Source: Tubiluchus corallicola
Lineage: Eukaryota; Priapulida; Priapulimorpha; Priapulimorphida; Tubiluchidae
DNA length: 64,000 bases
Reading direction: 5' to 3'
Assembly (NCBI GenBank): GCA_030141605.1
Contig: JAQGDQ010000021.1
Location: forward strand, 1 to 64,000
How positions within the stretch are numbered: position 1 is the stretch's first letter; every line of letters begins with the position of its first letter. Below, one piece after another: positions 1 to 57,579 of this stretch. The position numbers and the translations under genes were made by a program. Under the pieces are notes generated by a model. It did not search any database, was not told where the DNA came from, and saw nothing but the letters and a program-made list of their open reading frames with translations.

Positions 1-135
1 ATTTTACTGTGAATTGAAATACCTCACCCACTGAATAACTTTACTGCATTATGTTGCAGATCACTGCAAAACTGATGGCCATACCATCAGAACACTAGTG
101 GTATCATCATAATCTTTGTAAAAGACTGGTCAGTT

Positions 136-13100: not shown

Positions 13101-16100
13101 ATATATTACATTATCTTATATACTTACACTATTAACCAAACAGTAAGCGTGATTTGTGGGGTAATTTATGCAATTATAATTATGGTTTTCTCAAATCCCA
13201 TGAAAAAATGTCTAAATTTCTAGCTGTTTTCTAAACTACACCACTTATAATTTTACGAAGCAGCACGCTTCAACTTAACACAGCAATATTAAGTTATTAC
13301 AAAAACTAATAATTACTGTACCCATATAATGCATTATGTACGTATCGTAGACCAATTTTTAAATTCTGTATGTCAAAAACTAGCTACCAATTTAATTCTA
13401 CGTCAATGTCAGTTTCATTTGCCTAATCATAATAGTTTTGTCCAGCTTCTAGGAATCAACACATTTATTGAGCGACGATCGTTTCGGCTAATAAAGTCAT
13501 TATCAAACTATAAATCAAGCCAAAAAGAATAAATAATAGAATAATAATACAAAGGCACAAACTGAAACTAGAAAACTACAGATTAGAATTCAAGTTATCA
13601 AAATAAACTAGATTGTAACGGAAGAAATTGCAAGAGAAATGAACAAAATTTTACCGAACACATTACCCAGAACCAAAAAAGAACACAACAGGCAAATAAT
13701 TAATACAAGTCTACATAATGAAGAGCGACAGCAGTAAGCATTATAAGAATAAAACACAACTTCTACATTTTGCACAATTTACAACAAGTGGGAACTACAA
13801 TAAGGGAGACCAGCAGCATGTCAATGTGAAAGTGACAAGAGACTAAATCCAGCAGGACATTGTTTATTATTATTTATTTATATATTATTTATTCTTCTTT
13901 TTAGCTTGATTTATAGTTCAAAAATGGCTTCAATAGTCGAAATGATCATTGCTCAATGAAAATCTAGATAATAGTTTTGGTATATCACAGCACATGCTTT
14001 TTCCATTGTTAACTTTTTCTGTCCAAAATCTCAAAATGCTCAAAGCTGACAAAGGGCCACCCTAAATATTCTTGAAAGGGACCATGAGAACATGGAAAAC
14101 AGCCAAGAAAAAGCTTACACGGAAAGTGCAAGGTTCAGCCAAAAAATGGCTTTTAGCCACCGAACTATTAAAGATGGATAGAAATTCATGGAATCATTTC
14201 ACAGTAAAACATACTGCGGAGTAATGAACTAGCTTATTTAAGAATCAACACTTTTACCAGCATCTGCTATGGCAAGTAACGTGTTGTAGCTTAAGTTGCT
14301 GTGATAAGAGAAAAAGAAATATGCATTGCCTAATCAGTAATCACTAACACTTATGATTGCACAGGTAACTTAGTGCAATCATTATCCAGTAGTTTATGAT
14401 TTATAAACTGAAATAAAGTCAAAATGCTGCTCCAAAGCCGATTTAAAAATTAGCGTAATGCATGCATTTGAAAATGTATGCACCTGGCTCGTCTCCCAAA
14501 ATTCCAACATTTCCAACACGCACTAATTTTATGGTTTACAGTGTTTACAAGTAACAAAATCAGACTGCCCAAATTACCACACTGTAGTCCATCTGTAAAA
14601 GGTCATATTTTCCAGGAACTTTGACAAATGCATTCCTCATGTTCCAGTCATTTTTGGTTTTGTCTTTAAATCTACAAAAATAAGGTTTGCATTAGCAAAG
14701 ACCTTTTTCTCTTTTTTTGAACTTCTCGTCAATCATTTACATAGCAAAAAATCTCTGTTTTGTTATTTTTGTCGCATGAAATAGTAAATTTACGGATAAC
14801 ACCTTGTATATATATATATACCGAGCTCGGAGCAGCAGAATTTATTCATACACCGTCAGTTAAAATATTTTTGCTATAGTTGGTAGAACAAACTTGTATT
14901 ATGTAAACTAGATCACTTCTCCACCACAAAAAGCTAACCAGTAATTATTGCTTTGTTTGTACTCTGAACTTTTGTATGTCTGAATGCGAATAAAAATTAA
15001 TATAAAAAATAATTACGTTCTAAATGTTTACTTATTCAATAGTCACAATTTATTGCAATATGAAAGATAAAGATCGAAATAAAAGAGAAAAAGGGAGTTT
15101 CAAATTAAAAATAAAATGTAATAAATAATACAGAAAAATTCTTAAAGAACATATTAGACGCTATAATCATTTACAGCTACACATGAAAAAAGTCGAATGT
15201 TTGAGTAAGCAAAAATCAAAAGTCCACAAATTTTTGAAAAATAACAAACTTTCAAAAAATATTACTTTACATTATGTATTAACTGAGCTCTTAATTTCAT
15301 TTAAATTACTGACTAACGAGAAGCCAAATTCTGCCTCAAAAATTAAGAAAACTCAGTTATCTTATGAGTAAAAATTCTGACTTTTGCTCCCACTGCTAAA
15401 ACAATCTTAAAAGCAACAACGAAATAAAAGAAGTGCAAAAAGATGATGTGTCATACTTATTCTTGAAGACAGATTTAGCTTTTTCCATGTCTGGACCACA
15501 TGGGATGAGGCTGTTCTGTCCTTTTTTACCAACCCGACCCCATCGAAACCAAACATTATATGATTTTGAATTGTCGTCCTCCAGCAATTGCAGAATATAA
15601 TATTTATTGTTATTCCATTGCAAATTCGTCTGCAAAAGTAAAATGGCCAGTTGAAGAAGTCAATGTCCATCAGACAATAATCACCAAGGATAGGCAAATT
15701 ATTCATCAACAATTAATCAACAATTACAGGCAAATGCAGAAATAAATTTTTGCCTACTCCTCTTTAGTTCTCCATTCATAATAAAAGAAATAATTAATGC
15801 CCGAGTAACTTCTGACACCTTTTATTATCAAAATGTGGTTAAAGTTTATTCTGAAAACAAGAAATCTTTCCACCTTATTAGATTTTCTGTTCAATGCCAG
15901 AAGTTACTTACATACAGAACTGTAATGAGTTGTTCTGTATTTCTTCAGAGCTACTTCTACAAGGAATATTTTCTAACATTGATTAGCTATGATGTCACGC
16001 TTAGGAACTAGTCCAGTCCCACTAAACTAGAAAAGAGGTAGCTGTCTAAAAATCTGATTTGCTTAAACTTGAAAAAGTATCACGTAAAATATAAAAAAAT

Positions 16101-19100
16101 TAAAACACCAACCTGATTCAGCATAGCATCATAAATGTCATTGTTCTCATAATAAACGTGAGCCTTTCCCAGCTTTTCAACACATTCTGGATCAACTGGA
16201 GCTTTCCCAGACACTATCACAGTCCTAACTGCAACAAAGAGAAAACGACATTTAGTAACCACTAGTTCAATGCTTCCTTCCATTCCCATTTTCTCCCATA
16301 ATTAACAAACTGAACTTGTGAAAAAATGCATCCTCGCGATTTCCACTACACTTTAAACCTGTTAATCTGATTCAAAATATACCTAGTAGTTACAGGCTGA
16401 AAATGTAGTGGGATAAGTTTCGTTTCATAATAGTTGTGGATATCGGTTGCACTTTCAAACTAGACTAAACAGATATGGTACAGATTCAATAGGTAATCGA
16501 GTATAATTATTTTTTCAGTTATGTTATGAAGAAGTAGGTGCACATGAAAACCATGTGTTCATGCTGATACGAACCTTCCCATTTGAATAGGCGCGAAATG
16601 CTAAGTTACTATACAAAGGGAGCACCACATCACTTGGTTTTACCTCAATGACATTGCCGCTTGGATGAGAGGGTTTCTCAAAAGCACGAACAGTGGTTTT
16701 CATGTACTCTTATTTTGACAGCTATATTTGTCGCAAGATTTTTGTGGATTTACTGAAAACAAGGTGAAAATGCTGCTGGCAATGTAATCAACTTGCGCTG
16801 GTCAACTGAAAAAATAATCAGTGATCAGAAATAAAGGCCCAAATTGATAAAACTTTGAAAAAATAGGATATTATAAAAATAATTATGACGGAGTCACTGC
16901 AGATGAACAAACATCTAGAAGTAGTATAAAAACTCTTGCGATAAAATATGTATATTGCAGGCATTTTCAATTTGGGCTGCAACCGTTCAACACAGCTATA
17001 CAACCTGCAAAACTTAAGCCTTAGAAACCTAACATATGTTAAACTAATTTCTGTATTAGTAAGCGAAATACTTGATAATATACATTTCAGACGTGCATTT
17101 CATGCAGGCAAAAGCCAAAAATGCTTAGCAAAATACTCAGCAAGCAGAAAATAATATAGTAATTGGTCTATTACACTCTATTTGTTTTTCCCCATGTCAC
17201 ACAACACAGATCCTAACTTCAAAATCCTTTTTGGGGCCACTTTGTGCCAGCTACAACATACATTGCAGGGTTGATCATTTTCAATTGCAAATTAGTGTCC
17301 ATAATCACAATTCCTCAAAATTAAAGATCTTTGACATTATCACTTCGTTTGAAAACATAAACAAAAAATACATACTTACCATTAGCTTCTATATCTTCCT
17401 TGCTATCAACTGCTTTCTGTTTCTTCGACAATTTTTGCTTTTTTACTGAAACATCTTCATCTAAAATATACAGAATTTAAAAATAACAGTTTTTGTTTAG
17501 CAACTGAATTAAAGCAAATCACCTACATAAAAACTAAAATACTGAAAAGGCAACATCCACTAACATAGAAACTGGCACATATCAACAGCAATATTATAAA
17601 ACACACCGCTATCAGCAACTTGAGTTTCCTGTTTCTTTCGAGACTTTGCCTTCTTCACCGGAACCTCATCATCATCTAGGAAGCCAAAGAACAGAATCCA
17701 ACAACTGCTGATAATCTTTAATCCATATTCACAATACTTATGTGTAAACCAGAAGCAAAGCATTTCATCGATAACTGTACTCAACCAATTAAATCGAGTT
17801 TATTTTTCTCTGTAACATTTCAGGAATGAATACAAGTATAAAAATATATAAACATAAACAGAATAATAAATGTGTTAATAAAGTAAATATAAAGTCAACG
17901 AGGTAGGGTAGCAAATTGACAAAAAAGTCACAAAGTCAGTTACCCTTACTGACTAGCAATAGTGACAATAAAAACAATGGAACTGCATCCTTGTTGTTTG
18001 CTTTCTCTAATTTTAGTTTACATTATAGGCTAATTTAAATTACAATACCAAAAAATGAAACTGCTAAGACTGCTAACTGAGAAGTAATAACTCGAATAGG
18101 AAGAATGACAATATGACATTCTTATCATTATTTCAATATTATTTTTTACATTTCAACAGAGTGCCTCTCTGTAGTTGCTCATGATGGGTGATACCAGATT
18201 TTTAGATAACTGCAGCTACTGATTCATTTTAATCCAATAACAAATTACAAGGCAGATACCAATATTTGGCTAAATCAGAAACCAACCCGCGGGCCAAATC
18301 TGCACAGCAAAAACTTTTTTTCACTTAACTTCGACGTGATCGCATTTTCACAATGGGTTGTCCTGAAGTCAGGTTATTTTCCATGTACACACTAGTGTTT
18401 ATTCAAGTCGGTGCTTGATGATCACAATGATTTCGATATGATAAAGTAACAGCGTAGATGCTGCGTAAGCTTTTTTCCATTACCACGTTCAATGCCATCC
18501 TACTACCCTAGTGTTTTCCCCCAACTACCAAATACGAGATAACACATAATACGAGGTATGACGTCACAAATACTTGCTTCTTGAAAATTTTATGGTATCA
18601 TGCAAGTCACACCAGTGCATAAGCAAACACTTGCACAACTGCCAATGAAACTTTTAGGTGCAATGCCAAGCTTTTCCATGCGTGGTATAGTGTCATATGT
18701 AAACACCTACATGATTATTCATAGCACTGGCGAGTGCAACACCTTGAACGACTGTAATACCTTAGTCGTAGGTAATAATAACCATGTTAATACCCGACAA
18801 TGCACTGACAGCAAAAGCTTGTTTTCCGTACCACACAAACACATTTTACTTAGCAGCGAGTAAAAACAAGAAAACTGAGACTTATGCTGATTTTTTTATG
18901 CTTAACAGAATAAAGCAATTTACGTACCAGCCTCAGCATCGGCATCATTGTCATCGTTATAAGTCTTCTTTTTCTTCTTTGCACGTTCACTCTTCCTTAC
19001 TACAGCGCCGGCTGGAATGGGAGTTACAGGAGCTGGGGTTGATGCTGTGTGAGCAGGTGCACCTAATAAAGCATGCATATCTAACTAGTTTTCCAAAATG

Positions 19101-21660
19101 CAATTATTACAGTCATACAATGACATAAGTTTAATAAACATACTCACTGTCCATCTAAAAAGTAGCAGAAGTTAATTTCATTTGAACTGACTGACCATAA
19201 TTTATAAATAGAAGTTTTAGACAAACTTATAGACAATATAGTTAACAGTAAATTTTAAATTTAAATTTAAGAAGCATTCAAACAGTCAAGAAAAGAACAG
19301 ACAGTTGAATCAAATATGAAAACAATTCAACAAGCTCGGCTTTTCCAAGGTCTTGGAAAATATGTGGCACATTGTATAACTAAAATAACATACAATAAGA
19401 TGTACATCTAACAAATAAGTTCTGATTTTCTAAGCAAAAAAAAATCAAGAATTATTTTGATTTCTCAAAAACTGGCATAAAAATGATTAACATAATCATT
19501 CTAATTTATAGTGCAAGTTTTTACAGCTAGAGTAAAGAATGTATCAGCTTCCGCGCTCACAGATTTTAAAATGTCTAGGACCATACTAGATTTTACTCGT
19601 TGAACTTTGTATGTAGCTTCAGAATCACAATGCTGCATGCTTTTTACATCCACCGTGCATCCATTCCCCAAAACAACTGTGCTAGCATCGCCACCCCCGG
19701 CAAGCAAACACTGCTCCAGTTGAATGGAATCAGGAGCATCATAACAATTCCATTGCTTCCTCTCATCTTGCCATTGCCAGCTGTACAAATCTAAAAATCA
19801 AAAAAATTCAAAATTAACTCACTTAACGACAACAGTTTCATGATTCCTTTGTATCGGTGACTTAAATATGGCCCAAGAAAATATAAGCACTCTCTGTTCT
19901 GTTAAAATTACATTTGTACAATTACGTTCAAAGTTAGAAACTGCTTTCACCAGTCGCCATTTTATTTGCATTTCTGTTGAAGGGGAAGATCCACAAGATA
20001 AGCGCTACTCAAAGAGCATTAATGATCAGCATAAAACAGAACAGGTAATCTGTAACACTAGTAACTAAATTGAATTATTTTAGAGTGGTTTGGCTTTAGA
20101 TAAAACATACTGAGATAAACACACAGAATTTTGTACAAGCTATTCTGACTTTTCAGTAATGCTACAAATGTCCACAAATATAGGCCTATCCTTGTCACAT
20201 TTATAGCAGGATTCACAGTCGAGTGAATACATGTGCGATGAATGACTCATGGCTGCCTGCTTTCAATACTTACTCCGGGAAGTTTCATTTGCCGTACTGA
20301 TCATGACTATTAACCTCCTACAATATACATAGTCGAGATATCTCTACCGGTGATTCAATCACTTATACTTCAGAAACATTCTTGACAATGAGTCAGGATT
20401 CGGTGAAATAAACATTTGCTTTGGGAAGGTGTTTAAAATTCTCCCACATAATTTAAATTCCCTAATATTAACCCTAACACCAGCCCCAAGTCAACCCTAA
20501 CCCCAGCCCTAATCCTACTCCTCTTCACAAACTAATTTCTTGTGTGTGGGGAATTGTAAACTTCAGCCCTGGTTTGTATATAGCCTGGCATAGAATGGTG
20601 GATTTCAGCCTAAACTGTGCCAAAGTGTTTATAAAATACATGAAAGAGCCAGTCTCTAAAAATTAACATGTTGTTCATTAGTGCATAATAAACATATCAC
20701 AATTGTACTAATTATTTGTTTTGGCTTTATTTATAACATTGAAAACGACAGTTGCGTGAAACGATTGACTGCGCTAATGAACATGTTTATAAAAAAGTTA
20801 CATATAGAACCATGGTTCCATTTAACCATATTCTCATAATACTATACTTTTCTGCAACAAATTAGTGCTATAGAACACAGACTTACTAAGTGACTATAAG
20901 TCTATAAACACAAAAAACTCACCAACACAATAAATTATTGTAAACAGTTTCCTTTTCTATTCTATCTAATTTTACTTCTGAGCTACGTTTCAGCAAATAT
21001 GATAGAAGTCAGCATCTGGCGGAAATTTTGCAAAACTAGATAAAAAGATGACCAATGACTAAAAACAAGTCTAACTGCACTTTTGGTAATAATATGCTTC
21101 CAAAAAAATTATAAACCTTGTTAAGTATACATACAATGTTTATAGAAAAAATGTCACATTTTTGGCACTAAAATAAGATTAAAATGAAGACTTAAAGTCA
21201 AACTAAACCCTTACTATAATACAAAAGTTTCTACAGTGTAAAATACTACTCAGAATAAGAATATTCAGTTTAGTTTATTAGAAACTAGCTCTGCAGCCAG
21301 CAAACTAACTGATCTTCATGCAATGTTAAACAAAATTACCTCCGTCTTTGCTTTTTAGCACACACCGAATGCGCCTCTCCCAACCTGTGCCCTTGTGTTT
21401 TTGTACCATCTTTTCAAATTTCACCATAAATTTTGTTTTGTTTTCGGCTGTTAATGTCACCTGTTTCACAAAGTGAAGATCTAACAGTAAACATTATAAA
21501 CATTATGGCGAGTAGACTAATAGCTAAATTAATAATGGATTGGTATAAACAATTAAATAGAAAAATAAATCTTTTACTCTAACTGACAGTGTCTAAATGA
21601 ATGAGGCCCATGGGTCTGCAACTTTGTTTTAGATTTGCTACTGACAAATTAATGGAAAGT

Positions 21661-21719
<59 letters not shown>

Positions 21720-21739
21720 TGATGATGATGATGATGATG

Positions 21740-21791
<52 letters not shown>

Positions 21792-24700
21792 CAATAATGT
21801 TTAATAACAACAAAAAATGTTTATTCTAACATTATCTAACCTCTTTTTGTCCTTTTCCATATGCAACATTAAGAGCTTTTGATTGTTTACTTGAATAAGG
21901 TGTCCACTTGCTACCATCGTCTTCCCATTCCCAGTACAAGTTATGCGCATTATCAGCAGTTCCATTTGTTACTGTTGCACTATTATTCACCACATCTTCA
22001 AAAACAAAAACATGTCATTACATGAACAGTGCACCAAAAAGTAATGACGGAAAATTCTGGCAAAAATTGCTTGTAGGAATATGTTGATACATCCCTCCAT
22101 GCCAGAGACAGCTGAAGACAATATGGCACATAGTAGTAGCCGTATTTTAAGTGAGTTTTGTCCAAACAAAACTACAGTGTTCCCTCACTTCTCGCAGGCC
22201 CACCTGCGATAAGTGAATTTCCGCGAAGTAGAGCTGCTATGCTTATTTTAGTAGTTATACATTATTTTAAATCTTTATAAACACTTCCCACACTCTTATA
22301 CATAACCCTTTCCCATTCCCTTAATAACTTTTCCCATACTGTACATGTACCTTTTAAAAAACTTTACTTAAATGTTCATCAAAATGTTTTAAACTCTTAA
22401 GCCTAGATGAGTAGTACCGCAAAAACCCGCTAAACAGCGAAAATACAGCGATAAATATTTTACTTTAATATTTTTGAAAACCCGCGAAACAGCGAGTCCG
22501 CGATAAACGAACCGCGTAGTAGCGAGGGAACACTGTCCAACATTTGTAACAACACACATTCATGCTAAGTATGTACATAAATACATCACAACTATGTATA
22601 GAGGTCAGTTATCCAATGAAATGGTTTATCAATCTTTAAAAAGCTATTTCAGGCCATTAACAAAGATAAGAATAAATGGACTGTTAAGTTTAACAGCACA
22701 CAAAAAGGATAATATAATTATTTTATTCCCCTAAACCCTAGGCTGTATTAATAGTACTCAGCATCGGTACCTAGTAGGCTGACGTAGCTGTCTCACGACG
22801 AAGCATGCAATTAAGTAATTAAGAAGTCTGGCTGGGAAAAACTCTGTCAAATGACTTGTGTGGGAAAACAGTAACTTTTGTGACTCATAGATCGTGTGTT
22901 CAGGCTCTCAGGGTGTAATAACTGAATGCTTGTTATTAACATAACAGTGCAGTTAGTTGAAATGTACCAGTGGTTATTTTTATTAAAAACGTAAATGATT
23001 ACAAATTCTTCACTGCCGCTGAACCTTAACAATCTAGTACCTGACGGATATAAGGAAAAGGGTACCCAAGTCTGATTTTTTTCTACCTGTGTAAATACTA
23101 TGAATTACATTTTTTAAAAGCTTGAAGTGAATATTGTCAACCCAAGCTTGACCAGCTGCTTTGTCTGGCTTACTTGCCAAAAATAGCCTTAATGTTAACG
23201 TAACTTTGTTCGCATATTAGGTTTTTAGACAAACTATAATGATATATTACTCTTTGGTTTCAAAAAGTTCAGATGCAAAATTGTAAAATTATTTCATATT
23301 CACAATTTGTGCAGTGAAATGTTATTGACTTCATGTCTAAGGAGTAACACTAACAGTTCTCACAAGTGGGAAGCACAGAAAAAGGCAATTTTAAATTTGA
23401 AATAATGAGCACAAAGGGGCATGAGCAAGATCACACCCTACAAGTCTAGTGCTTTTTTAATGGTGGATACAAGTTATCTGAGTGCCAGTCCTTCTTTAGA
23501 AAACCTTTGAATTGCACAAAATCTTCGCTTAGATGCACAACCTTTGTTTTGGCTACCAAGTTCCTGGCCATACCTTTAAGCAATGCAAGAACAGGTGCAC
23601 TTGTACAATTTGTGATAAACGCCCTACGGTGCTCCATGGCGAGCTCCGTCAGGCTTCCAATGCCAAGAGTGATATCTTTAAGCGAAGTGAGATTCTTTGA
23701 GATGTAGCTATCCAAGTGTAAGAGACCTATTGTTAATTGTTGTAATTGGTATATTGAATGTGCCGTACAACATGAGGTATACAATGTGCATTGATCTAAT
23801 AATCTCAGGTTTGGTGCAATAGTCAAGGTAGCTCAAGATTAGTATGCGAAGTTAAGATGTACACATTAGTACAACTGTATGTTATTGTTATATGGGTTTT
23901 CACTTACTACCGAGGTGTTCCCGTCAAGGAGCCAAAGAGCATACATGTACTGAATAGTCATGTCAGGTTCATGTATGATACCTGTGATTGCATAAGTACG
24001 AGCAATAATATGCATAATTACTTTTGAAAGAGCACTATGGCATCAATTGTGCCAACATTCCCCTCTGTCATGATAGTTACACCCTACTTGTGACATAGGC
24101 ATTACTGCTTAACTGTTATCCCCTGCCCAATAAAGGCTTCCCTCTTGTAAGCCAGATGTAACATTACCACCTCTAGCTGACGAGTCACTTGCTATGAAAC
24201 TTCTTTAATGTTTTTCAATAAAATAGTTTATTTTGCCTAAATCTGTGCAGTTTTGGTGTTTCCTGTTAATGACTTTACACTTTATATTACACTAGCCAAA
24301 CCCCACAAAAAGAATTTTGTGCACAAATCAACACACAACCCACACCACACCACTCCACCTCATCACACCACACTGCACCACACCATACCACTCCACCTCA
24401 TCGCACCACACTGCACCACACAATACCACCACACCGCACCGCACCACACCGCACCACACCATACCACTCCACCACATCACACCACACTGCACCACACCAC
24501 TTCACCACCCACACTACACACCACACCACCCACACCATAATACTCCACCACATCACACCGCACACCACACTGCACCACACCACCCACCCACCTACACACC
24601 ACACCACCCACACCATACCACTCCACCACATCACACCGCACAACCCACACCACACCACCCACACCATAATACTCCACCACATCACACCGCACAGCACCAC

Positions 24701-27700
24701 ACCATAACACCACACTGCACCACACAATACCACCACACCGCACCACACACACCATACCACCTACACACCACACCATACCACTCCACCACATCACACCACA
24801 CTGCACCACACCACTTCACCACCCGCACACCACACCACCCACACCATAATACTCCACCACATCACACCGCACACCACACTGCACCACACCACCCACCCAC
24901 CTACACACCACACCACCCACACCATACCACTCCACCACATCACACTGCACAACCCACACACCACACCACACCACCCACACCATAATACTCCACCACATCA
25001 CACCGCACCATAACACCACACTGCACCACACAATACCACCACACCACACCACCCACACCATACCAGTCCACCACATCACACCACACCACACCATACCACT
25101 GCAGCACACCGCACCAGCCACACACCACACCACACCACCCACACCATGCGACTCCACCACATCACACCACACTGCACCACACCATACCACTCCACCATAT
25201 CACACCACACCACACCACCCACGCCATAATACTCCACCACATCACACCGCACTGCACCACACCACACTTCACCACAACACCCACCCACTCCATACCACAC
25301 TACCCACACCACACCCCACACACCCTATCACCCCACCACACCATCCATAGCACAACACACAAAGCACACCACCACCACACCACATCAAATCCACCACCTC
25401 ACGTGGTGATCATGATGATGATGATGGTGGCAACGATGATGACACCTATAGCACCAACAGCACAGCATTACAACAAAACCATTCCAAACATTTTTCACAA
25501 AGTTGAAACTATGTGCTTTAATATGATAAATAGCAAAGGCCCCGCAAAAGATTTTGCATAAAAAACCATATATAATCAATAACACGCGAACATCCTACCT
25601 AGTCCTCATTTATTACACAAAGCCCGTAACATCATGCCTACTGTTTGTTTAACTAACGCAAACCTGTAGCAGGCAGCTTTTTGCTGAATTAAAGCTATAA
25701 GATTATAGACCGAATACAATGGATGACGTCACAACAATGCCTTTGCGTCAGCAGTTTTCTAAGCGAAAATTGCCGAAAATGGAACCTCTAATTAACTCGT
25801 CGGTACTTCTCTCGGTGGACCTGCCCTCAAATATAGCCCACATCATCGTGTAGCCCTGTCCTTCCTCTTTGTAAAGAGCCCCATATCTCCTTCCTAGAGT
25901 CCCACCGGGCGACGCTAGAACGTTTTTTCCGCATGCTGTTTGGTCAAAATTTCGAAAAAATCGCGAGTTGGGTCCGGGAAAACGCCCGTTGCGGGACCCC
26001 GTGGAATTCTAAATATGCCTACTACACCCACCGCTGAACGGGCTATCTATCCATACCCAGCACCCCCCTCGACCCATTCCCGTTCTCTACATCTCAGCCG
26101 TATAACTTTTGCAAAAAACGCCCGAAAAAGGGCCATTTTTGGAGGTTTTTCGCCCCCCGTTCCTCCCGGTGGGCCCGATTCGAAAAATAAACCATCAATG
26201 AGACGACACTAGATCGAGACCTTTCGTTTGATATATAGATCGCCGCAAATGGTGCCCTCGTCAAAGCTGTAGCCTCGAATCTTATATATATATAAATAAA
26301 TATATATATATATATATATATATACCAAGAATATTAATATAAGAGATTTAAGGTTAACCCGAATATAATGTGAATTTAGTTTAAGTTGTAAAGAAATTTG
26401 ATCACCCATTTGTATTCGTGAGCCTGCAATAAACTAAGTCTATCTGGACCATGGTAATGCTTGGAATACCAAATGTTGTTGTTCGAATTTGTGTACTCAA
26501 TTTCCACAATTAAATTACAAGCATACAGTAACTGCTGGATTGGTGTGAACAGAAATTCATTTGCGAACAAGTTTAATCTCTGTTTGTGATTGTGTCATAT
26601 GAACATTAGTAAGTCTATGAACATAAATTATTGATTTGTCATTGCTTATAGTAAATTTAATCACGTGTGTAACATTTCCGCAAACACTGATATGGTTAGC
26701 TAGCAATTATTAGATAATTTCATATTATATTATATGATTATTGAATAATATAATGAACGATGAGCATTACTAGCCTCGCAGGTTTTGCTTGATATGTTCC
26801 CACCGAAGATGTAATTCGTCACGATTATAGTTTACTTCACATTGCACTGTTTAGCAACTTTAGCAACAATATAAATCTTAGTGTCATAGTAGCATTGAGT
26901 TCTGAGTAATTTGTAATGTAGTCAGACATTTTCCAGTTTGTGTTGAATTTACTAGTTTAGTAAATCTGCGCTTTGCCTTGTGCCCATGCTTACGTTCATA
27001 CAAGTTGTATTTATCTTAATGGATACAGAGTTTTGATTGCCTGTTGGTTTAATGTTGTTTGAGACAAAACACATGTTCTACTATGCAGCTATGTTGCCTC
27101 TTTACAATTAGGAGTTAAATTTAACCAGTTTGAACTTTGTTCTGACAAATTTTGTAGTTATGGCAATCACTGGTTGTACGTTAGTCACAGGCTGATGTAA
27201 ATAGCCCATACAGTCTGGTCAATTTAGGGGAGCCACGTAATTGCCTGACTGAATTTACCTTTATTGGATGGCACTGCCCTCTATTAATGATAGTCAGGCA
27301 TTGTTCTGTTGTCCAGTTTTTGCATTTTAGTGAACAATGGACGGCGTGCTGGCAGATGCTAGAATACGTGTTTACGAGATTGTTGTGAGAGTTATGAAGC
27401 TATTCTATGAGGTTGTCAAGTTAATTTACGTGTTTCATTAGCAGAAATAAATGTCTCTTGCCTTACATAGTCTTCGTTATTCATTACATCAATAAATATT
27501 TCAACGAATTAGACAGTACATTAGCAGCAACCCACTAATCAAGGCACTATACCATGGAATTTTTTATTAATTGCACTTATTCTTGTCACAAACAATTATT
27601 TCCTGATAGCTGTGATTCCACTAGATCAACTTCATGTGTAAACTAGGTTGAATTTGCGCTTATGCGACATTAAACTGTACAGGGCAGTGCTTCCCATTAA

Positions 27701-27805
27701 AAGAATAAAGATAGATAGGTTATTTTTAAAAACTTATTTAGCATAACTATAAGTATCATCACCTGGTTTACTCAGACATTTTTTAGTCTTTCCCTGCGGC
27801 GCCAT
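4125..27805 (-). CDS. PARP2: PARP2-type poly(ADP-ribose) polymerase with two N-terminal WWE domains, 21 exons, complete
   Basis: Exons in transcript order: 27805-27763, 21995-21841, 21460-21340, 19790-19561, 19154-19148, 19062-18928, 17675-17607, 17460-17380, 16228-16113, 15629-15457, 14671-14578, 12486-12394, 10911-10827, 9934-9793, 9440-9377, 8936-8802, 8252-8128, 6565-6466, 5622-5524, 4779-4655, 4278-4125. All have GT-AG ends and compatible phases; 2,346 nt give 781 residues. Domains: WWE1 about 33-106 ([11 protein letters not shown]), WWE2 about 108-172 ([12 protein letters not shown]), Lys-rich linker with likely NLS 208-218, WGR about 290-400 (WGR at 349-351), helical regulatory domain about 440-565, ADP-ribosyltransferase about 570-781. 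The H-Y-E triad is His628 (LLWHGS), Tyr662 (GKGVYFAD) and Glu759 (YNEFIVY); Tyr673 matches the nicotinamide-stacking Tyr. From WGR to the end it follows human PARP2 (DNA-break-activated PAR synthesis in the nucleus). The WWE pair is not part of vertebrate PARP2. WWE domains of known families bind iso-ADP-ribose in PAR, so self-reading of product is inferred. The gene is divergent from the small gene at 28039. Confidence 0.93.
9935..12393 (-). other. PARP introns flanking the exon at 10827-10911, with a GC-rich island
   Basis: This is intronic DNA on both sides of the 85-nt helical-domain exon. A segment at about 11160-11345 is strikingly more GC-rich than its surroundings and carries several AGCCG- and AGCTGA-type words. 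Further copies of AGCTGA- and TCAGC-rich text appear around 11950-12090. It has no recognisable coding match and is probably an old repeat. The remainder is plain AT-rich intron. Confidence 0.4.
13464..13961. mobile_element. Foldback element with about 90-bp imperfect inverted arms, possibly Penelope-like
   Basis: The left arm (about 13464-13549) and right arm (about 13863-13961) are imperfect inverted copies. Shared words include AACTATAAATCAAGC, followed by an AAAAAGAATAAATAAT-like tract, with ATTGAGC at both outer ends. The roughly 310-bp centre is AT-rich without a coding frame. The element lies in the PARP intron between exons 12394-12486 and 14578-14671. The outer parts read (toward the outer ends) TAGCCGAAACGATCG and TAGTCGAAATGATCA, resembling the GAAA side of hammerhead ribozymes that occur in Penelope-like elements. 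That family link is a guess. Confidence 0.45.
19148..19154 (-). CDS. PARP2: 7-nt microexon of the PARP gene
   Basis: On the - strand the sequence reads TTTTTAG, then ATGGACA, then GTGAGTA, which is an acceptor, seven bases and a full-consensus donor. The upstream WWE2 exon ends in phase 0 at 19561 (followed by GTGAGC) and the downstream exon at 19062 needs one preceding base. Without an insert of 3n+1 bases the frame would break, and this microexon restores it, adding Met-Asp and the first base of Ser. I found no alternative donor in the WWE2 exon that would do the same. Support is by phase logic only. Confidence 0.7.
19791..21339 (-). other. PARP intron between the two WWE domain exons
   Basis: A 1.55-kb intron separating the exon that completes WWE1 from the single exon that encodes WWE2. 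It contains the TTAGGG-rich MITE copy described separately. I see no other exon or RNA gene in it. Confidence 0.6.
20432..20560 (-). mobile_element. TTAGGG-rich MITE-like element, copy 1
   Basis: About 130 bp with imperfect terminal inverted repeats. One end reads, inward on the - strand, TTTACAATTCCCCACACACA; the other end reads GTTTAAAATTCTCCCACATA on the + strand. The interior is built of CCCTAA/TTAGGG-related words (ACCCTAA, CAGCCC). The same ends and interior recur, inverted relative to this copy, at 28335-28496. It lies inside a PARP intron, so it is not a telomere. There is no coding capacity, and the superfamily cannot be assigned. Confidence 0.65.
21662..21788 (+). repeat. AAT/GAT trinucleotide microsatellite
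   Basis: About 127 bp of (AAT)n interrupted by a block of (GAT) repeats near 21718-21740. It sits about 50 bp downstream of the donor of the WWE1 exon ending at 21841, in PARP intron 2. The Asn/Asp-run reading frame across it is a by-product of the repeat, not a gene. Confidence 0.95.
22175..22535. mobile_element. Tigger/pogo-like MITE (361 bp) in PARP intron 1
   Basis: Terminal inverted repeats read CAGTGTTCCCTCACTTCTCG on the left and, reverse-complemented from the right end, CAGTGTTCCCTCGCTACTAC. The right part carries several degraded inner words such as CCCGCGAAACAGCG. TIRs starting CAGTG(N)TCCCTCR are typical of pogo/Tigger non-autonomous elements, which insert at TA. The left flank is TA; the right flank has decayed to TC. 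No transposase frame remains. Confidence 0.8.
23446..23981 (-). pseudogene. Exon-like open frames inside PARP intron 1, unrecognised
   Basis: On the same strand as PARP there is an open frame of about 126 codons at 23446-23826. It has a balanced, protein-like composition (for example [13 protein letters not shown] and [14 protein letters not shown]) and ends in a stop at 23446. Upstream, 23981-23908 is an exon-like segment with an acceptor (CACAG) and a donor (GTAAGTG) that reads [20 protein letters not shown], reminiscent of ARM-type helical repeats. The phases of the two pieces do not join with the splice sites I can see. It could be a nested gene, a retroposed fragment or a decayed gene. 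I do not recognise the family. Confidence 0.3.
24328..25388 (+). repeat. C/A-only minisatellite (about 1.06 kb) with higher-order period near 310 bp
   Basis: The + strand is almost free of G. It is made of variants of CACCACACC with recurring words CCATACCACTCCACCACATC and CACCATAATACTCCACCAC. A larger block repeats: TTCACC at 24501 and again at 24814, and CCATAA at 24535 and 24844, giving a higher-order period of about 309-313 bp. In the PARP pre-mRNA it would be a GU-rich tract. Long His/Thr/Pro frames and the Val/Trp/Cys frames on the other strand are artefacts of the repeat. Confidence 0.95.
25531..26044 (+). repeat. Dispersed repeat, copy A (GC-richer, also at 51328)
   Basis: It starts with TAGCAAAGGCCCCGCAAAA and is similar along about 480-510 bp to 51328-51808 in the same orientation. 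Landmarks present in both: GCGAACATCCTAC, TAGATGACGTCA/TGGATGACGTCA, GGGTCCGGGAAAACGCCC and TTCTAAATATG. Both copies share a short reading frame around FGQNFEKI and WVRENA. Copy A continues with unique GC-rich sequence to about 26215. No TIRs or poly(A) tail were identified, so its class is unknown. Confidence 0.7.
26357..27762 (-). repeat. Left arm of a 1,406-bp inverted repeat (5' part of PARP intron 1)
   Basis: This is an inverted copy of 28679-30084. Every segment compared (26401-26460, 26701-26760, 27241-27300, 27661-27762) is identical to its partner, and both arms are exactly 1,406 bp, so no net indel exists. The inner end at 27762 is exactly the GT donor of PARP exon 1 (CCAG then GTGATGATACTT). 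The outer end at 26357 has no splice site. A 64-codon open frame occurs in both arms only because they are copies. Confidence 0.95.
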
Positions 27806-28038
27806 TTTTCCACAGTAGTTTTTTTGGTGATAAAACTAAGTCATACAATTTTCATTACTGGGGAAATTATAAAAATGAAATCCCGCGAAAACAAGCTAAT
27901 AGCATACTATAATAAACTAGTCTTCGATTCAAGAGCTCCGAAAAAGTCGCTTCGGTTTTGTTTTCAATTGTTCACGATCGCAAAAAAATAATCACGACTG
28001 GATTTCGTTATAATTGTCGTCCAGGGCTGAACTTTATT
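27806..28038. promoter_or_regulatory. Presumed bidirectional promoter between PARP and the small + strand gene
   Basis: 233 bp separate the PARP start codon (27805, reading left) from the ATG of the small gene (28039, reading right). The segment has CpG-containing words (TCCCGCGAAAA, TTCACGATCGC, GTCGCTTCGG) not common in the surrounding AT-rich DNA. No TATA box is placed convincingly. Its promoter role is inferred from the head-to-head layout. Confidence 0.5.
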
Positions 28039-30258
28039 ATGTTCGAAGTTTCCAATTCAAACAGTGAACAAGTAAGTAAACCAAAACAACAGTCAAATAA
28101 CAAAGCTTTTAGGAGAAATACAGCTGGAACTGAAATGTGCAAAAGTGGAAACTGGAAGTCGATAAAAAGCTTTAAAAACCCAACGCAAAAGTAAGAAATC
28201 TGTGAAGTCAAACGCTTTAGCGCTGACTTTAACTTATTAATTTTTGTGATGAAAGTGACGTGAAAAAAAAACAGATAAACGAGTTAATACAGAAAATACA
28301 TCCTTTACTGTTATAATAAAAATTTAACCTAAAGTTTACAATTCCCCACACACAACAAATTGGTTCATGAAGTAGATTAGGGTTATATGATTAGGATCAG
28401 CATTAGGGTTGGGGTTAGGGTTAGGGCTGGGTTAGGGTTAGAGAAAGGGTTAGGATTAAGGTTTGGATACTTAAACTGTGTGGGGAATTTTCCAAAATTT
28501 ATTACACAAGACATCTTGTACAAACATGTACAATCCTCTACATCCTGTACAAAAAGACATGTTGTACAAACATTATAAACATACTGTGCAGCTCACATTT
28601 TATCTGAAGAAGTTTTTCCCCTATTTATTATTAGAATTTAGCATGTTTCCTAAAAGTTACTTGCTGGAGCACATCTAAGTGATGATACTTATAGTTATGC
28701 TAAATAAGTTTTTAAAAATAACCTATCTATCTTTATTCTTTTAATGGGAAGCACTGCCCTGTACAGTTTAATGTCGCATAAGCGCAAATTCAACCTAGTT
28801 TACACATGAAGTTGATCTAGTGGAATCACAGCTATCAGGAAATAATTGTTTGTGACAAGAATAAGTGCAATTAATAAAAAATTCCATGGTATAGTGCCTT
28901 GATTAGTGGGTTGCTGCTAATGTACTGTCTAATTCGTTGAAATATTTATTGATGTAATGAATAACAAAGACTATGTAAGGCAAGAGACATTTATTTCTGC
29001 TAATGAAACACGTAAATTAACTTGACAACCTCATAGAATAGCTTCATAACTCTCACAACAATCTCGTAAACACGTATTCTAGCATCTGCCAGCACGCCGT
29101 CCATTGTTCACTAAAATGCAAAAACTGGACAACAGAACAATGCCTGACTATCATTAATAGAGGGCAGTGCCATCCAATAAAGGTAAATTCAGTCAGGCAA
29201 TTACGTGGCTCCCCTAAATTGACCAGACTGTATGGGCTATTTACATCAGCCTGTGACTAACGTACAACCAGTGATTGCCATAACTACAAAATTTGTCAGA
29301 ACAAAGTTCAAACTGGTTAAATTTAACTCCTAATTGTAAAGAGGCAACATAGCTGCATAGTAGAACATGTGTTTTGTCTCAAACAACATTAAACCAACAG
29401 GCAATCAAAACTCTGTATCCATTAAGATAAATACAACTTGTATGAACGTAAGCATGGGCACAAGGCAAAGCGCAGATTTACTAAACTAGTAAATTCAACA
29501 CAAACTGGAAAATGTCTGACTACATTACAAATTACTCAGAACTCAATGCTACTATGACACTAAGATTTATATTGTTGCTAAAGTTGCTAAACAGTGCAAT
29601 GTGAAGTAAACTATAATCGTGACGAATTACATCTTCGGTGGGAACATATCAAGCAAAACCTGCGAGGCTAGTAATGCTCATCGTTCATTATATTATTCAA
29701 TAATCATATAATATAATATGAAATTATCTAATAATTGCTAGCTAACCATATCAGTGTTTGCGGAAATGTTACACACGTGATTAAATTTACTATAAGCAAT
29801 GACAAATCAATAATTTATGTTCATAGACTTACTAATGTTCATATGACACAATCACAAACAGAGATTAAACTTGTTCGCAAATGAATTTCTGTTCACACCA
29901 ATCCAGCAGTTACTGTATGCTTGTAATTTAATTGTGGAAATTGAGTACACAAATTCGAACAACAACATTTGGTATTCCAAGCATTACCATGGTCCAGATA
30001 GACTTAGTTTATTGCAGGCTCACGAATACAAATGGGTGATCAAATTTCTTTACAACTTAAACTAAATTCACATTATATTCGGGTAGGGTGGTGGATGAAG
30101 AGACAGGAATTTATGCCTTGAACTTAACGGAAAGTCAACCTGAATTAATAGTAGACCCGATCAGTGCAGAGATAAGAAGTATGTCAAAGAAGCCTCGTAC
30201 ATCGAGAACAACATTTGCTCGTCTTGAAATAAGACCATGGGTATCATACCAGTTATAA
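28039..30258 (+). CDS. Small three-exon gene of unknown function (82 aa model)
   Basis: Model: 28039-28071, 28635-28678 and 30087-30258 (33+44+172 nt = 82 residues plus stop). Donors are GTAAGT at 28072 and GTGATG at 28679; acceptors are TTATTATTAG at 28634 and GGGTAG at 30086. Phases are 0 then 2 and all agree. Exon 3 is the best supported: 57 open codons with a protein-like composition (VVDEETGIYALNLTE, then SAEIRSMSKKPRTSR, ending RPWVSYQL and stop). Exon 2 (FLKVTCWSTSK) and exon 1 (MFEVSNSNSEQ) rest on splice signals and phase only. There is no signal peptide or membrane segment. I do not recognise the family. It is divergent from PARP and convergent with TTC9, 612 bp away. Intron 2 is the right arm of the large inverted repeat plus the terminal AG. 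Confidence 0.5.
28335..28496 (+). mobile_element. TTAGGG-rich MITE-like element, copy 2
   Basis: The left terminus is TTTACAATTCCCCACACACA. The right terminus, reverse-complemented, is TTTGGAAAATTCCCCACACA, so the inverted repeats are about 18-20 bp and imperfect. The interior is TTAGGG-like (GGGGTTAGGGTTAGGGCTGG and similar). It is homologous to copy 1 at 20432-20560. It lies in intron 1 of the small + strand gene, 183 bp inside the right-arm boundary of the inverted repeat. Confidence 0.65.
28679..30084 (+). repeat. Right arm of the 1,406-bp inverted repeat (intron 2 of the small gene)
   Basis: Mirror copy of 26357-27762. On the + strand it begins with a GT donor (GTGATGATACTT) directly after exon 2 and ends in TTCGGGT; the next two bases are the acceptor AG at 30085-30086, followed by exon 3. 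The repeat therefore equals a complete intron minus its final AG. The 916-bp spacer between the arms (27763-28678) is not itself symmetrical. Confidence 0.95.
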
Positions 30259-30870
30259 TCACAATTATTAATGTTTACAAGTTTCCACATCATTTTACAT
30301 TACAGATGCGGTAGTGGCAGTAACCACTTAAATACATACAAAGATGTAACCATACTTGACACAAATAGCAACAGTACATTTAATTGCCAATTTGCCACTC
30401 CAAGCTACATGATAAAACCTGTTACACTATTAATTGCTTATCTATATTTTGCAGAGAAAATGCACAAATTTTATTTGTTTTAAAACAAAACCATTATTCA
30501 AATTTCAATGCCTATCAGGTGAGCAATGCCTGTTTGCCATCTACGAGCATCAATTTATGTTGACGAATTGTGGCGAGTACAAATATTTGTTTTAACAGCC
30601 AGTATGAATATCTGTTTTGACAGTACAGCATACTGAGTATATAATAAATCTGTTTACTTGAGCAGTTTTCAAAACAAAACGAACATACGCAGAATTTGCA
30701 TTAATCTGGATGCATTTTCTTGTATCAAATTCTAAAGTCCCAGGAATTAGTTCAAGATAACTAAATGCATTGTTAATGCAACAATATTTAACAGCAAAAA
30801 AAATACAACAAATAACTAATAAAAATACACTGCAATAGTAGCTATCACCAAGCAAAGAATGTCAAAGAAA

Positions 30871-33255
30871 TTACATACTTGTGAGATATTTCTTGATGAG
30901 ATGTGGGAGAGTAACTATTAATAAAATTCTTGGCATTAAGAATTTATTGATACTGTTTACTGATGGTTTGGAAAAACACGTGTTTTGCACACAATTGCTT
31001 GCAAATCTAGCAATTACTGTACCAAGGGTACCAGAGAAAGCTGAAATGGTGCAAGATCTTAGCATTTTATGATGCATGCAATAATAATATGATTACCTGA
31101 TGAACTGGCAGCATTCTGTGACTCCTGTAAACTAAAGAATGCATCGTCGAATCTCTGCAAGTGATAGAGTGCCATTCCCTGACGAAATAATGCCTTCGCA
31201 TTGCCCTCTGACATATCAGCTGCCATGGTGCTGTATTCTAAAACCTTCTCATAATTAACAGGAGGTGTATTTAGCAAACAAGCTGCAAAAAATTAAAAGA
31301 ATCTGCAATACTAGTAGTCAGGGCACAACTCATTTCAAGCTACTCTAAATCACACTCTTACGATCACCAACATCAGGACCACATCACATCTCTGTTATAT
31401 CATCACAGTCACAAACAATCTTTTATAATAATTCAACAGACTGCAAGCCGCAATATAGCGCATGATTTAATGGCGGGTCCTACATAAATTACATAATTAG
31501 GGCGAGTCTGGGACCTAACTCAAGGTTATGATTCTAGCTAAAATGAGCCACTGAATCAGTAGAGGCGCTTTAGTAATGCTTGGATGTGTAAGAAAACATC
31601 AGGCCCTTTACGGGGGAGGGGTGCCCTGTACAGTTAAGCCAGCATGGTAATTCATCCATTCAGTAAAGCTGCAGTGCCATTCCCATTTATGACCAGCCTC
31701 AGCACCATCCATAACTTCATCTGCTATGCACATGACCACTGGGCTGTGAACCTCACCCAAATTATAAATTTATTTCTCATAAGATCTGTATTCATCATTG
31801 CCATTGTTCATGATTCTTGTTAACATTACCATGGACAACATTAACGACAATAGCGATGACGATAAATTTGTCATGTCATCACAAGAAGTAAAATGACACA
31901 GTTACAAAGCACTGCAAAAACATACCAAGAGGCTGAATATGGATATCAATATCATACCTTGACAAAGGAAACTCAAAGCTGTCTTTAGAAAGAAAGGAAT
32001 AGGTCTGTGAAGTGATCAGTATTTCTGAGTGATGGACACAGACACAGGCAGGAAAATACTTAGTATTGCACAAAAAACTTAATTCAAAATTTCTCTTATT
32101 GGCACAAACAAAAATCCACTCAGTGAAACACGAGACATACCAGCCAGGTTATTATAACAATCCGCAGTCAATGCTGTAACTTTTGACGAGTTATCGCTCG
32201 AAGACTGATATTCAAAGGAATGAAATTCGGGTGACATTTCGGCTAGTGGATGCTTTATCGTTAATGCCTTTAAATAAAGAAGCGCTCGATGGTACTTGCG
32301 AATAGCACCTAAAAAGATGTCATGAATATGCATAGCTGTTCACTGTACGTATAAAATTTTAATCATTGTTTGCAATGCTTGTAATTAAATGCTTGATAAT
32401 AAATGCTTGTAATGCAATAAAATACCATACCATTCTATGTTTGCTGCACTGACCAAAAGTTGTAGATGAAATGTAGTTGAGTACAGCTAACAAAGCCATG
32501 AATATAGTAGCGGGATTTACTACAAAATTATCAATCGAAATACAAACTTTGATTACGTGATAGCTGCTGATAAGAAGAAACTTGAAGTGGCAAAAAATAG
32601 TGCACTTTACTACAAACAGCATTTCTTTTAACTGGAAATGCAAAGATGGACAGTTAGATATGACCACAGAGTATTCAATAGGCATTGCATTTCATGAAAC
32701 CACCTTTAAAAAGAGGACACTGTTATAATGTTGAGTTATCAATTAACATCTATGCCTGTTACAACACTTTGGTTTGGTGTTCTTTTAGGCAGTGCACCTT
32801 AACTTGTAATTGGAATGGCGCTGCTCTTTAAATTGGAATAAAGTCATAATTTCATTCTTTACTTTATTATTTATGGTTACAACAGACACCATGCAAAGAA
32901 CAAACTTACCTTTGTAATTTTTCTCTTTATAAAACTGATTGCCTTCAATCTTATATGATTCTGCAATAGACAACTTAGTATCAGCGTCCAAGGATGTCGA
33001 CGGCCCAGATGTTGCATTTTCATCTCCCGATGTTGAAGGCCTGACTTCAGCTGTCACATCTAGGGAAGTAGCACCAATCAACTCTGTACCTTGTGATAAT
33101 GCAGCTGCACAAGCATCTTTGTGTTCATTATCACAAGAACTAGAAGTATTAACAAGCTTATCAGTTTTAGTCACATTTAAATCAGCAGTCGGTGTACCAT
33201 TTGTAGACAGCAATTCTTGAGATTTCAAAGTGTCAGTGCTCTGCTCTGTACTCAT
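30871..33255 (-). CDS. TTC9: Tetratricopeptide repeat protein 9 (TTC9) family, 4 exons, complete
   Basis: Exons in transcript order: 33255-32910, 32308-32141, 31282-31097 and 30914-30871 (346+168+186+44 nt = 247 residues plus stop), all GT-AG with introns in phase 1. The TPR core matches human TTC9C: YKIEGNQFYKEKNYKGAIR (about 102-120), a CYNNLAACLLNTPPVNYEK block spanning the exon 2/3 junction (about 165-184), and AKALFRQGMALYHLQRFDDA in exon 3. TTC9 proteins are small cytoplasmic TPR proteins thought to contact Hsp90-type partners. Oddities are a Ser/Thr-rich N-terminal extension of about 95 residues without a recognised domain, and a C-terminus that stops shortly after IKKYL, so the family's usual last stretch is missing. 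The last exon is the weakest call. The start ATG at 33255 is the first in frame. Confidence 0.9.
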
Positions 33256-33599
33256 TTCAGTAGAATTAATGGACTAAACCAGCCTGAAAAAACAAAGTAT
33301 CAAGTGAAACAGTAGATATTAGTCAAGCAATACTATCAGAAAAAAGTCAAAATACATCAGTGCATTGTGTCATGTTTTACTACGATATCGCATAAGCGCA
33401 TCTGTGTCGCAATAGTATGAACACCGAAATATAGCACGAGTCTGACCAGATAAAAAATATGAAATAATTCAAGTGGCAAATGTAGAATGTATTGTAGTTA
33501 CTTAACAATCAGTGCAGTGATAGCAGCAATAGCAGAACTGACACGGGCAGAAATGCTGCTAGCAACCAAAGCAATTAAAAGCACAACACTTTTATAATA
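33256..33599. other. Region upstream of TTC9
   Basis: Presumed 5' untranslated region and promoter of TTC9. No TATA box or other site could be assigned. Confidence 0.4.
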
Positions 33600-34990
33600 A
33601 TCTACAGGCAGTCACTGCTCAACACTTGGGCTGAGTATTGAATGGTGCTATTTGCATAAAAAGTCTCACGCACTAGTTAAACCATTACTGCTATTTTACA
33701 AGAAATCATTTGAAAATGGTGTTGACCCACTACCCAATGACTGGAAGCTGTCAAGAATTAGTCCAATCCTGAAGAAAGGAGCAAGAAGTTGCAGTTCACC
33801 TGCAAATCGTAGTCCATTGCTATCACTAGTCTTACCTGCAAAGTTCTTGAGAAACTGATAATTAACGAAATTATGCAATACTTCGAAGCTCGGAGGCTAA
33901 TTGGTGCATTACGGCATGATTACTTAAAGAACAGATTTGTCACAAATAACCTACTTGTACTTTTTAAATTTGTCTTCTCAAAGTTTGACCAAAGAATGCC
34001 TGCCGGTTGAATATACAGTAGTCGCCGCTTAATAAACTCACTTTGGGACTGACGTGTTTTGACCCAATTAACCGACTGAACCTATTAATCGATGGGTGTC
34101 GTATTACAGGTATAGAAGTATGAGTCATCAGTTTACTATGCACTGCAAAGGTTTTTAATGAATTTTAGAAACGAAGAAATGCCTAAATTCCTTTGTGCAG
34201 TTAAAAATTAGAAAAAACATTAAAATATTAATTTATATAAGTAAATTAGCAATAAATTAAAAGGTATACTTTTCTACATGACAGATTTTTTTAAGTCTGT
34301 TTATTCGCAAAAACTGCAAAAATTCCTTCAAAGTCGGCCGCTTCATTTTTTCGCAAAGAAGTTGGCAGACAATGAAAATCTGTTGTTATGCGTGATTAAA
34401 ACAGTTCTGAATCTGAATAGCTTCCAGAAATTCTTTGGGTAATGAGGTTAATTGCAGCGGGCGAGCGGGTAACGGATTCAAAGCAAAACCGCTACGCTAG
34501 CATATTAGCACATGATAAACGTACCATAAAATGACATAAAAGTAGGAAAGGCTGTTTGAGCACATACAAATGTCTTACTTTAAGGAAAGAAGGAAAAATA
34601 TTGAGTCATATTGAGAAGGAATACGTGAAGGAAAAATATTGAGTCATTTAAGCGAAGTTATTTGAGTCAATTACCGATAGTTTTTATGTATATTTGAATA
34701 GAAGAGGTCCGTTCCAGGCATTTTTGAGTCAATTAAGCGATTGAGTCGATTAACCGTGAGTCTATTAAGCGGCAACTACTGTACTCAGACTTAGCCAAAG
34801 CTTTCCATAAGGTCGATATTGATCACTAAAGTTCGACCTTATGGCATAGCAAGAAGTTACTTGACTGGAATGGCAACTGGCTAATGGATCATATAGAGCA
34901 GGTGCAGATAAATTCAGGATGAGGCATAAGCTACATCTCCTGAGGTTCCACAAGGAACATTCCTCTGCTGCTTCCATTGTGTAGCCACTA
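33600..34990 (+). pseudogene. Decayed non-LTR retrotransposon reverse transcriptase, split by a MITE
   Basis: The 5' piece (33600-34013) reads through fingers-type RT motifs: LPNDWKLSRISPILKKGA (family consensus: P.DW....V.PI.KKG), then a degraded NYRP-like block and ERLIINEIMQYFE-like text. The 3' piece (34784-34990) resumes with DLAKAFHKVD (consensus LDL.KAFD.VD, holding the first catalytic Asp) and ends near a decayed SG.PQG motif. Frameshifts and stops interrupt it and no ORF1 or endonuclease is seen. It resembles CR1/Jockey-like elements of invertebrates. The MITE at 34016-34781 is inserted between the two pieces. Confidence 0.8.
34016..34781. mobile_element. Tigger/pogo-like MITE (766 bp) inserted in the RT pseudogene
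   Basis: TIRs are CAGTAGTCGCCGCTTAATAA on the left and, reverse-complemented from the right, CAGTAGTTGCCGCTTAATAG. They are flanked on both sides by TA (34014-34015 and 34782-34783), the expected target duplication of Tc1/mariner-pogo elements. The interior carries repeated words such as TGAGTC.ATTAA and GTGAAGGAAAAATATTGAGTC. No transposase frame is present. It interrupts reverse transcriptase homology, so it inserted after the retrotransposon. Confidence 0.85.

Positions 34991-41795: not shown

Positions 41796-57579
<15,784 letters not shown>

Follow-up and report, generated by a model that had tools for sequence, protein, structure and literature searches.

In the human fold-back inverted duplications described in PMC3907307, unduplicated spacers measure 766-70,466 bp, and of the 18 junctions lacking long repeats, 13 show inverted microhomology of 2-8 bp. 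Some of the listed fold-backs are joined to translocated DNA, one such translocation case having a 724-bp spacer (PMC3907307). Here we describe a palindrome with two 1.4-kb arms in the priapulid Tubiluchus corallicola. It lies in the first 64,000 nucleotides of contig JAQGDQ010000021.1 (C296), a stretch that starts at the contig tip and is referred to as the window. In its anatomy the palindrome looks like a small counterpart of those human fold-back inverted duplications that are joined to translocations, and such a structure could also arise in vitro. A preliminary description had interpreted it as a mirrored intron, with identical copies forming matching introns of two divergent genes. Comparison with another version of the locus dissolves this picture, as the two apparently respected splice donors become a 4-bp microhomology lying on one donor.

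The F8 int1h repeats are inverted, about 1 kb long, approximately 99.9% identical and far apart, and one of them is located in the first intron; our arms are alike in size and identity, but stand only 916 bp apart and at a junction. The locus resembles the human fold-backs in its unduplicated spacer of about 1 kb, the short microhomology at the edge between spacer and copy and the unrelated DNA beyond, whereas the human cases tabulated in PMC3907307 include duplications of roughly 10 kb up to 14 Mb, all in patients, compared with 1.4 kb in one assembly here. Templated insertions ascribed to microhomology-mediated break-induced replication share the local inverted copy at the junction in the examples given in PMC8421209 and PMC7702065, but differ in that the second junction here could not be matched to its parent.

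The palindrome is present in the assembled sequence. Its arms align over 1406 bp with no gaps and one mismatch (99.93%), so that the copies previously called identical match over their full length except for a single site (27475, a G in intron sense, in the left arm versus 28966, an A, in the right arm). The spacer showed no long similarity to the arms or internally, and the 200 bp adjoining the arms were identical at random level (22.5% on the inner and 25.5% on the outer side), in agreement with the earlier statement that the sequences outside share nothing. Among the inverted repeats of at least 60 bp listed for the window, the palindrome is the sole entry, and the rest of the window contained four short arm matches only, at an E-value of 0.91. 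In a small sample of nine genome loci (about 87 kb), long inverted repeats were otherwise absent.

A second version of the locus was found in the interior of a 1.44-Mb contig (C1809), which matches window positions 1-28682 with indels and 97.9-100% identity by segment. The aligned pieces correspond to window 28682-26346, 24291-16482, 16481-6468 and 6467-1, the last one with 99.5% identity. C1809 carries one arm only (232298-234184, in two pieces about 484 bases apart, with an extra element between them), at the start of PARP2 intron 1; therefore, the left arm of the window is the native sequence and the right arm the copy. Genome searches scored part of the candidates in several cases, and the absence of a weak second copy is accordingly not proven by the following results. 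The spacer was recovered near full length in two places, C296 and C1809 (40 of 932 candidates scored). No near-identical second copy was seen for the continuation of C1809 (40 of 397 and 40 of 4215 candidates scored), for window 43500-47500 (all seven candidates scored) or for window 30085-34000, which yielded short dispersed repeats only (40 of 137 candidates scored). The latter segment also had no match in C1809:202001-231387, a region in which window 34007-34783 has matches that look like a dispersed repeat. Because neither continuation showed a second copy, we regard this as one locus in two versions, each followed by different DNA.

At the inner edge of the right arm, C1809 reads CATCTAA-GTGA-CATTTG, i.e. 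CATCTAAGTGA followed by CATTTGATTTC, whereas the window reads CATCTAAGTGA followed by TGATACTT and the PARP2 donor reads CCAGGTGATGATAC (CCAG-GTGA-TGATAC). C1809 departs from the window exactly after the GTGA at the arm edge. On this comparison, the join is a 4-bp inverted microhomology and the GT of the supposed second donor is native spacer DNA. Since the C1809 spacer already carries GTGA at this position, the idea that the donors of two genes had been respected finds no support; the position of the inner edge on the PARP2 donor is one coincidence, a GTGA at a donor. Microhomology of at least 4 bp occurred at 2.2% of random junctions in the sequence (200,000 trials, P = 0.022). That both arms begin at a GT donor is correct for the left arm, while the GT of the right arm is weak and belongs to the spacer, and the sense orientation of both arms is automatic for an inverted repeat around a divergent gene pair.

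The substitutions that separate the two versions indicate both direction and age of the copying. Left arm and C1809 differ by 15 substitutions over the aligned arm. At 14 of these sites the right arm carries the base of the left arm and at one, the lone mismatch, that of C1809; there was no site at which left arm and C1809 agreed against the right arm. In addition, a 485-bp element of the C1809 arm is missing from both arms. As 14 of the 15 substitutions are common to both arms, the right arm was templated from the C296 version after the versions had diverged, although templating from the same chromosome presupposes that each version belongs to a different chromosome. The copy is also younger than the split of the versions, because the arms differ at 1 of 1406 positions and the left arm and C1809 at 15, which bears out the earlier view of a recent copying of one arm from the other. 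For the single arm difference, the best explanation is that the left arm changed afterwards or contains a consensus error at this site.

Taken together, we consider it probable that the palindrome arose by fold-back copying at a junction fusing two loci, counting a chromosomal and an in vitro or assembly origin jointly. On one version of the PARP2 locus, a DNA end near 28682 would have folded back so that its terminal GTGA paired, across 916 bp, with the matching four bases at the donor of PARP2 intron 1. Approximately 1.4 kb of intron 1 would then have been copied in inverted orientation, before the new end was joined to an unrelated locus from 30085 onwards; C1809 would represent the ancestral state. 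The one-armed C1809, the 4-bp GTGA edge, the unduplicated spacer, the template from the same version and the different DNA beyond the copy can be read directly from the sequences, and the model is backed by the GTGA edge, C1809, the substitution pattern and the lack of a near-identical copy of 30085-34000 in the search described above. Several points weigh against it. Only the inner of the two junctions was analyzed against its origin, searches of the genome with both continuations turned up no reciprocal product (40 candidates scored in each), 4 bp of microhomology is modest, and the model has to treat the position of the inner end at the PARP2 donor as a coincidence. Moreover, the junction is known from assembled sequence alone, and a three-exon plus-strand gene model across it reads open.

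Chromosomal residence of the junction, as a heterozygous rearrangement, and an origin in vitro or during assembly are about equally probable. The artefact, an amplification or library chimera or an assembly misjoin of a PARP2 haplotig tip to a contig starting at 30085, is in sequence terms a sub-branch of the fold-back explanation, and we rate it as a serious contender that falls somewhat short of probable. Positions 1-28678 of C296 duplicate the interior of C1809 and sit at a contig end, all four other segments searched were without a near-identical second copy (with 40 candidates scored in three of them), and a reciprocal product was likewise not seen. Whole-genome amplification typically yields inverted chimeras joined at short microhomology. 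On the other hand, the first junction offers an assembler an overlap of 4 bp only, and the small sample of nine loci was free of other long inverted repeats. The agreement of the right arm with C1809 at the lone difference fits a mutation of the left arm after a real duplication, but a consensus error would look alike. If the junction is real, the locus preserves, at base resolution, the recent trace of a fold-back copying event at a rearrangement in an animal genome; otherwise it shows where C296 should be broken. In either case, a gene model spanning the junction is probably false.

We regard as unlikely a dispersed segmental duplication, in which at least 28.7 kb including PARP2 was copied beside the locus at 30085 with a fold-back at its edge. 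The 97.9-100% identity by segment with indels and the lack of a second copy of either continuation among the candidates scored are compatible with this scenario. However, the second version starts exactly at the contig end, as expected for an allele, and the degree of divergence seems normal for heterozygous alleles in a wild invertebrate.

The minus-strand gene (window 27805-8130) encodes two WWE domains, a WGR domain, a PARP regulatory domain and the start of a catalytic domain. In the PDB, the part of the protein surrounding WGR is closest to PARP2 chains (E = 3.6e-57), supporting the assignment of the gene as a PARP2 orthologue on sequence grounds. Splice donors were scored with a matrix built from 14 of the 16 PARP junctions; the tested junction 1-2 was left out, junction 11-12 had no clear solution, and the choice was made by eye where several phase-compatible pairs existed. 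The donor at 27762 (CAG/GTGATG) scored 5.94, compared with 0.33 and -0.58 for the other two phase-compatible donors. This best-scored donor and the phase-compatible exon agree with the earlier assignment of the left arm to the 5' end of PARP intron 1, of which it covers the first 1406 of about 5767 bases. The two N-terminal WWE domains precede WGR, an arrangement that human PARP2 does not have.

The second gene of the mirrored intron fared differently. Its donor at 28679 (TAA/GTGATG) scored 1.38; 35% of all GTs do at least as well, each of the 14 leave-one-out PARP donors scores higher (2.6-8.0), and higher-scoring plus-strand donors are located at 28072 and 28191. Acceptors scored 4.79 at 28635 (reached by 6% of AGs) and 2.51 at 30087 (13% of AGs). 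The 44-nt exon 2 was not coding-like in a codon-usage test, as 63% of null segments scored as high; the training set of this test included the PARP exons, among them exon 1, that served as positive controls, which are thus not independent. The plus-strand open reading frames (ORFs) 28039-28188 and 30088-30240 were borderline coding (6-7% of null segments as high), and a two-exon model without exon 2 is also open. A real first exon at 28039-28190 is possible, because this ORF is borderline coding and unchanged in C1809. The predicted gene as a whole crosses the junction and appears weak, since its exon 3 sits in DNA that is missing from the C1809 version and in a dispersed repeat. With a poor donor, an exon 2 that does not look coding and a repeat as exon 3, the right arm can hardly be upheld as intron 2 of a second gene.

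The plus-strand ORFs had no Pfam family above cut-off (best: Nse5, E = 0.058) and matched only three bacterial adhesin sequences weakly in the PDB set (E = 0.015, 0.016 and 0.78). A sororin-like identity of the gene found no support. In mammals, PARP2 and RNase P share a bidirectional promoter, and RNase P RNA was therefore looked for in the window, where nothing matched. No RNA family reached its gathering threshold in the window; there was one chance-level microRNA match and no transfer RNA.

The protein of exon 3 matched five other genome places (E = 8.8e-5 to 7.4e-4, 43-48% identity, all 14 candidates scored). A 160-residue open frame of the best relative had 32 matches on 20 contigs, itself and the window fragment included (all 38 candidates scored), 17 of them with stops. 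For this relative, the Pfam families DDE_3 and HTH_SB (the Sleeping Beauty type helix-turn-helix) gave an E-value of 0.06, as did two unrelated families alike. Based on the dispersed and broken copies, the weak Pfam signals and its motifs, the repeat is probably a DDE-type transposase. In the relatives the frame runs on upstream of the matched part, and most simply the junction would run through a relic of the transposase.

Two explanations involving the intron itself are left. The right arm could be the complementary DNA of excised PARP2 intron RNA patching a break, as in class 2 templated sequence insertions. In the cases described in PMC5110952, these insertions resemble our locus in the lack of a target-site duplication, in edge microhomology and in the occurrence of intronic donors, but they differ in that the donor here is 916 bp away and an RNA intermediate is hypothetical. 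The copy begins at the first base of the intron and no target-site duplication is visible. Against this, it includes only 1406 of the roughly 5767 intron bases, its source lies 916 bp off within the same locus version, and the copy showed no mark of splicing or polyadenylation. Because the GTGA at the edge is already present in the native spacer, the exact start can be accounted for without RNA. We judge this scenario very unlikely, and still less credible is an elaboration in which a break in a heterozygous chromosomal rearrangement was patched with reverse-transcribed PARP2 intron RNA from its first base and the near-identical arms could recombine, flipping the cassette of promoter and exon 1.

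A genome search with the arm gave 23 matches (all 22 candidates scored), and the whole unit was covered only by the two arms and the C1809 locus. The other 19 matches represent an internal old repeat, do not start at the arm end and show 70-87% identity, some being partial. Neither viral_contigs nor genome_contigs contained a match to a 48-base pattern from the arm. As no further copy of the whole unit occurs among the 23 matches, the prediction of further introner copies at donors fails, and intron mobility is not supported by the sequence. Introners, as characterized in PMC9860276, share the GT start and the possible GT...AG reading on the right, unlike our locus in forming a family of copies; the second intron is not supported here. 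An introner or other mobile intron in two genes is the least credible explanation, in spite of the GT start at the PARP2 donor, the AG directly after the right copy and the open three-exon model, given a whole unit confined to the arms and C1809, arm ends and flanks with neither terminal inverted repeats nor target-site duplication, and a weak second gene.

Table 1. Coordinates of the palindrome and associated features in the window.
Feature	Position	Strand	Basis or remark
Tip of C296, allele or haplotypic duplicate representing a second version of C1809:231388-258457	1..28678		Piecewise alignment, indels
Native left arm, initial 1406 bp of PARP2 intron 1	26357..27762	-	Lone arm in C1809
Old dispersed repeat of about 218 bp inside arm	27237..27454	+	Mirror copy 28987-29204; 19 other places, four aligned
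Spacer, fold-back loop in proposed model	27763..28678		Near full length in two genome places, C296 and C1809
PARP2 exon 1, 14 residues, phase 1, donor CAG/GTGATG	27763..27805	-	Phase-compatible with WWE exon 21995-21841; same sequence in C1809
Right arm, inverted copy of left arm	28679..30084	+	Common substitutions with left arm; without the C1809 element
GTGA microhomology, join of spacer and right arm	28679..28682	+	Partner 27759-27762, minus strand; C1809 continues CATCTAAGTGA/CATTTG
Single arm mismatch	28966..28966	+	Right arm A, like C1809
Unrelated locus after right arm, with 3' exons of TPR gene on minus strand	30085..34000		Genome search, TPR_2 match
Proposed exon 3, diverged fragment of dispersed coding repeat	30088..30240	+	Similarity begins at 30076-30088, around outer end of arm

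The TPR_2 match beyond the right arm has an E-value of 5.1e-6 and 26.7 bits, below the cut-off of 27, and belongs to a gene that we take to be TTC9-like. A repeat of approximately 160 bp inside this gene (32721-32884) accounts for 37 of the 40 other matches of the segment at 79-94% identity (40 of 137 candidates scored).

The spacer contains a telomere-like, TTAGGG-rich stretch (28329-28489), which is bounded by a 13-bp perfect inverted repeat (AATTCCCCACACA). It is a dispersed element, taking 56 of the 58 spacer matches at 71-82% identity (40 of 932 candidates scored), and a piece of it is also found at window 20469-20566.

The two versions of the locus further differ in inserted DNA. The element splitting the C1809 arm (C1809:232453-232937) is flanked by TA and has inverted ends (CAGTGGCCGCC...), and we take it to be a probable non-autonomous element of the Tc1/pogo type. 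Conversely, 2054 bp of the C296 version (window 24292-26345) are missing from C1809; within them, a long array of low complexity occupies about 24322-25301, and the repeat at 25517-26044 is also found at 51314-51806. Beyond PARP2, C1809:222001-232000 contains a kinase frame without introns, 757 codons or more in length and presumably MAP4K-like, together with apparent transposon remains, whose transposase we assume to be pogo/Tigger-like.

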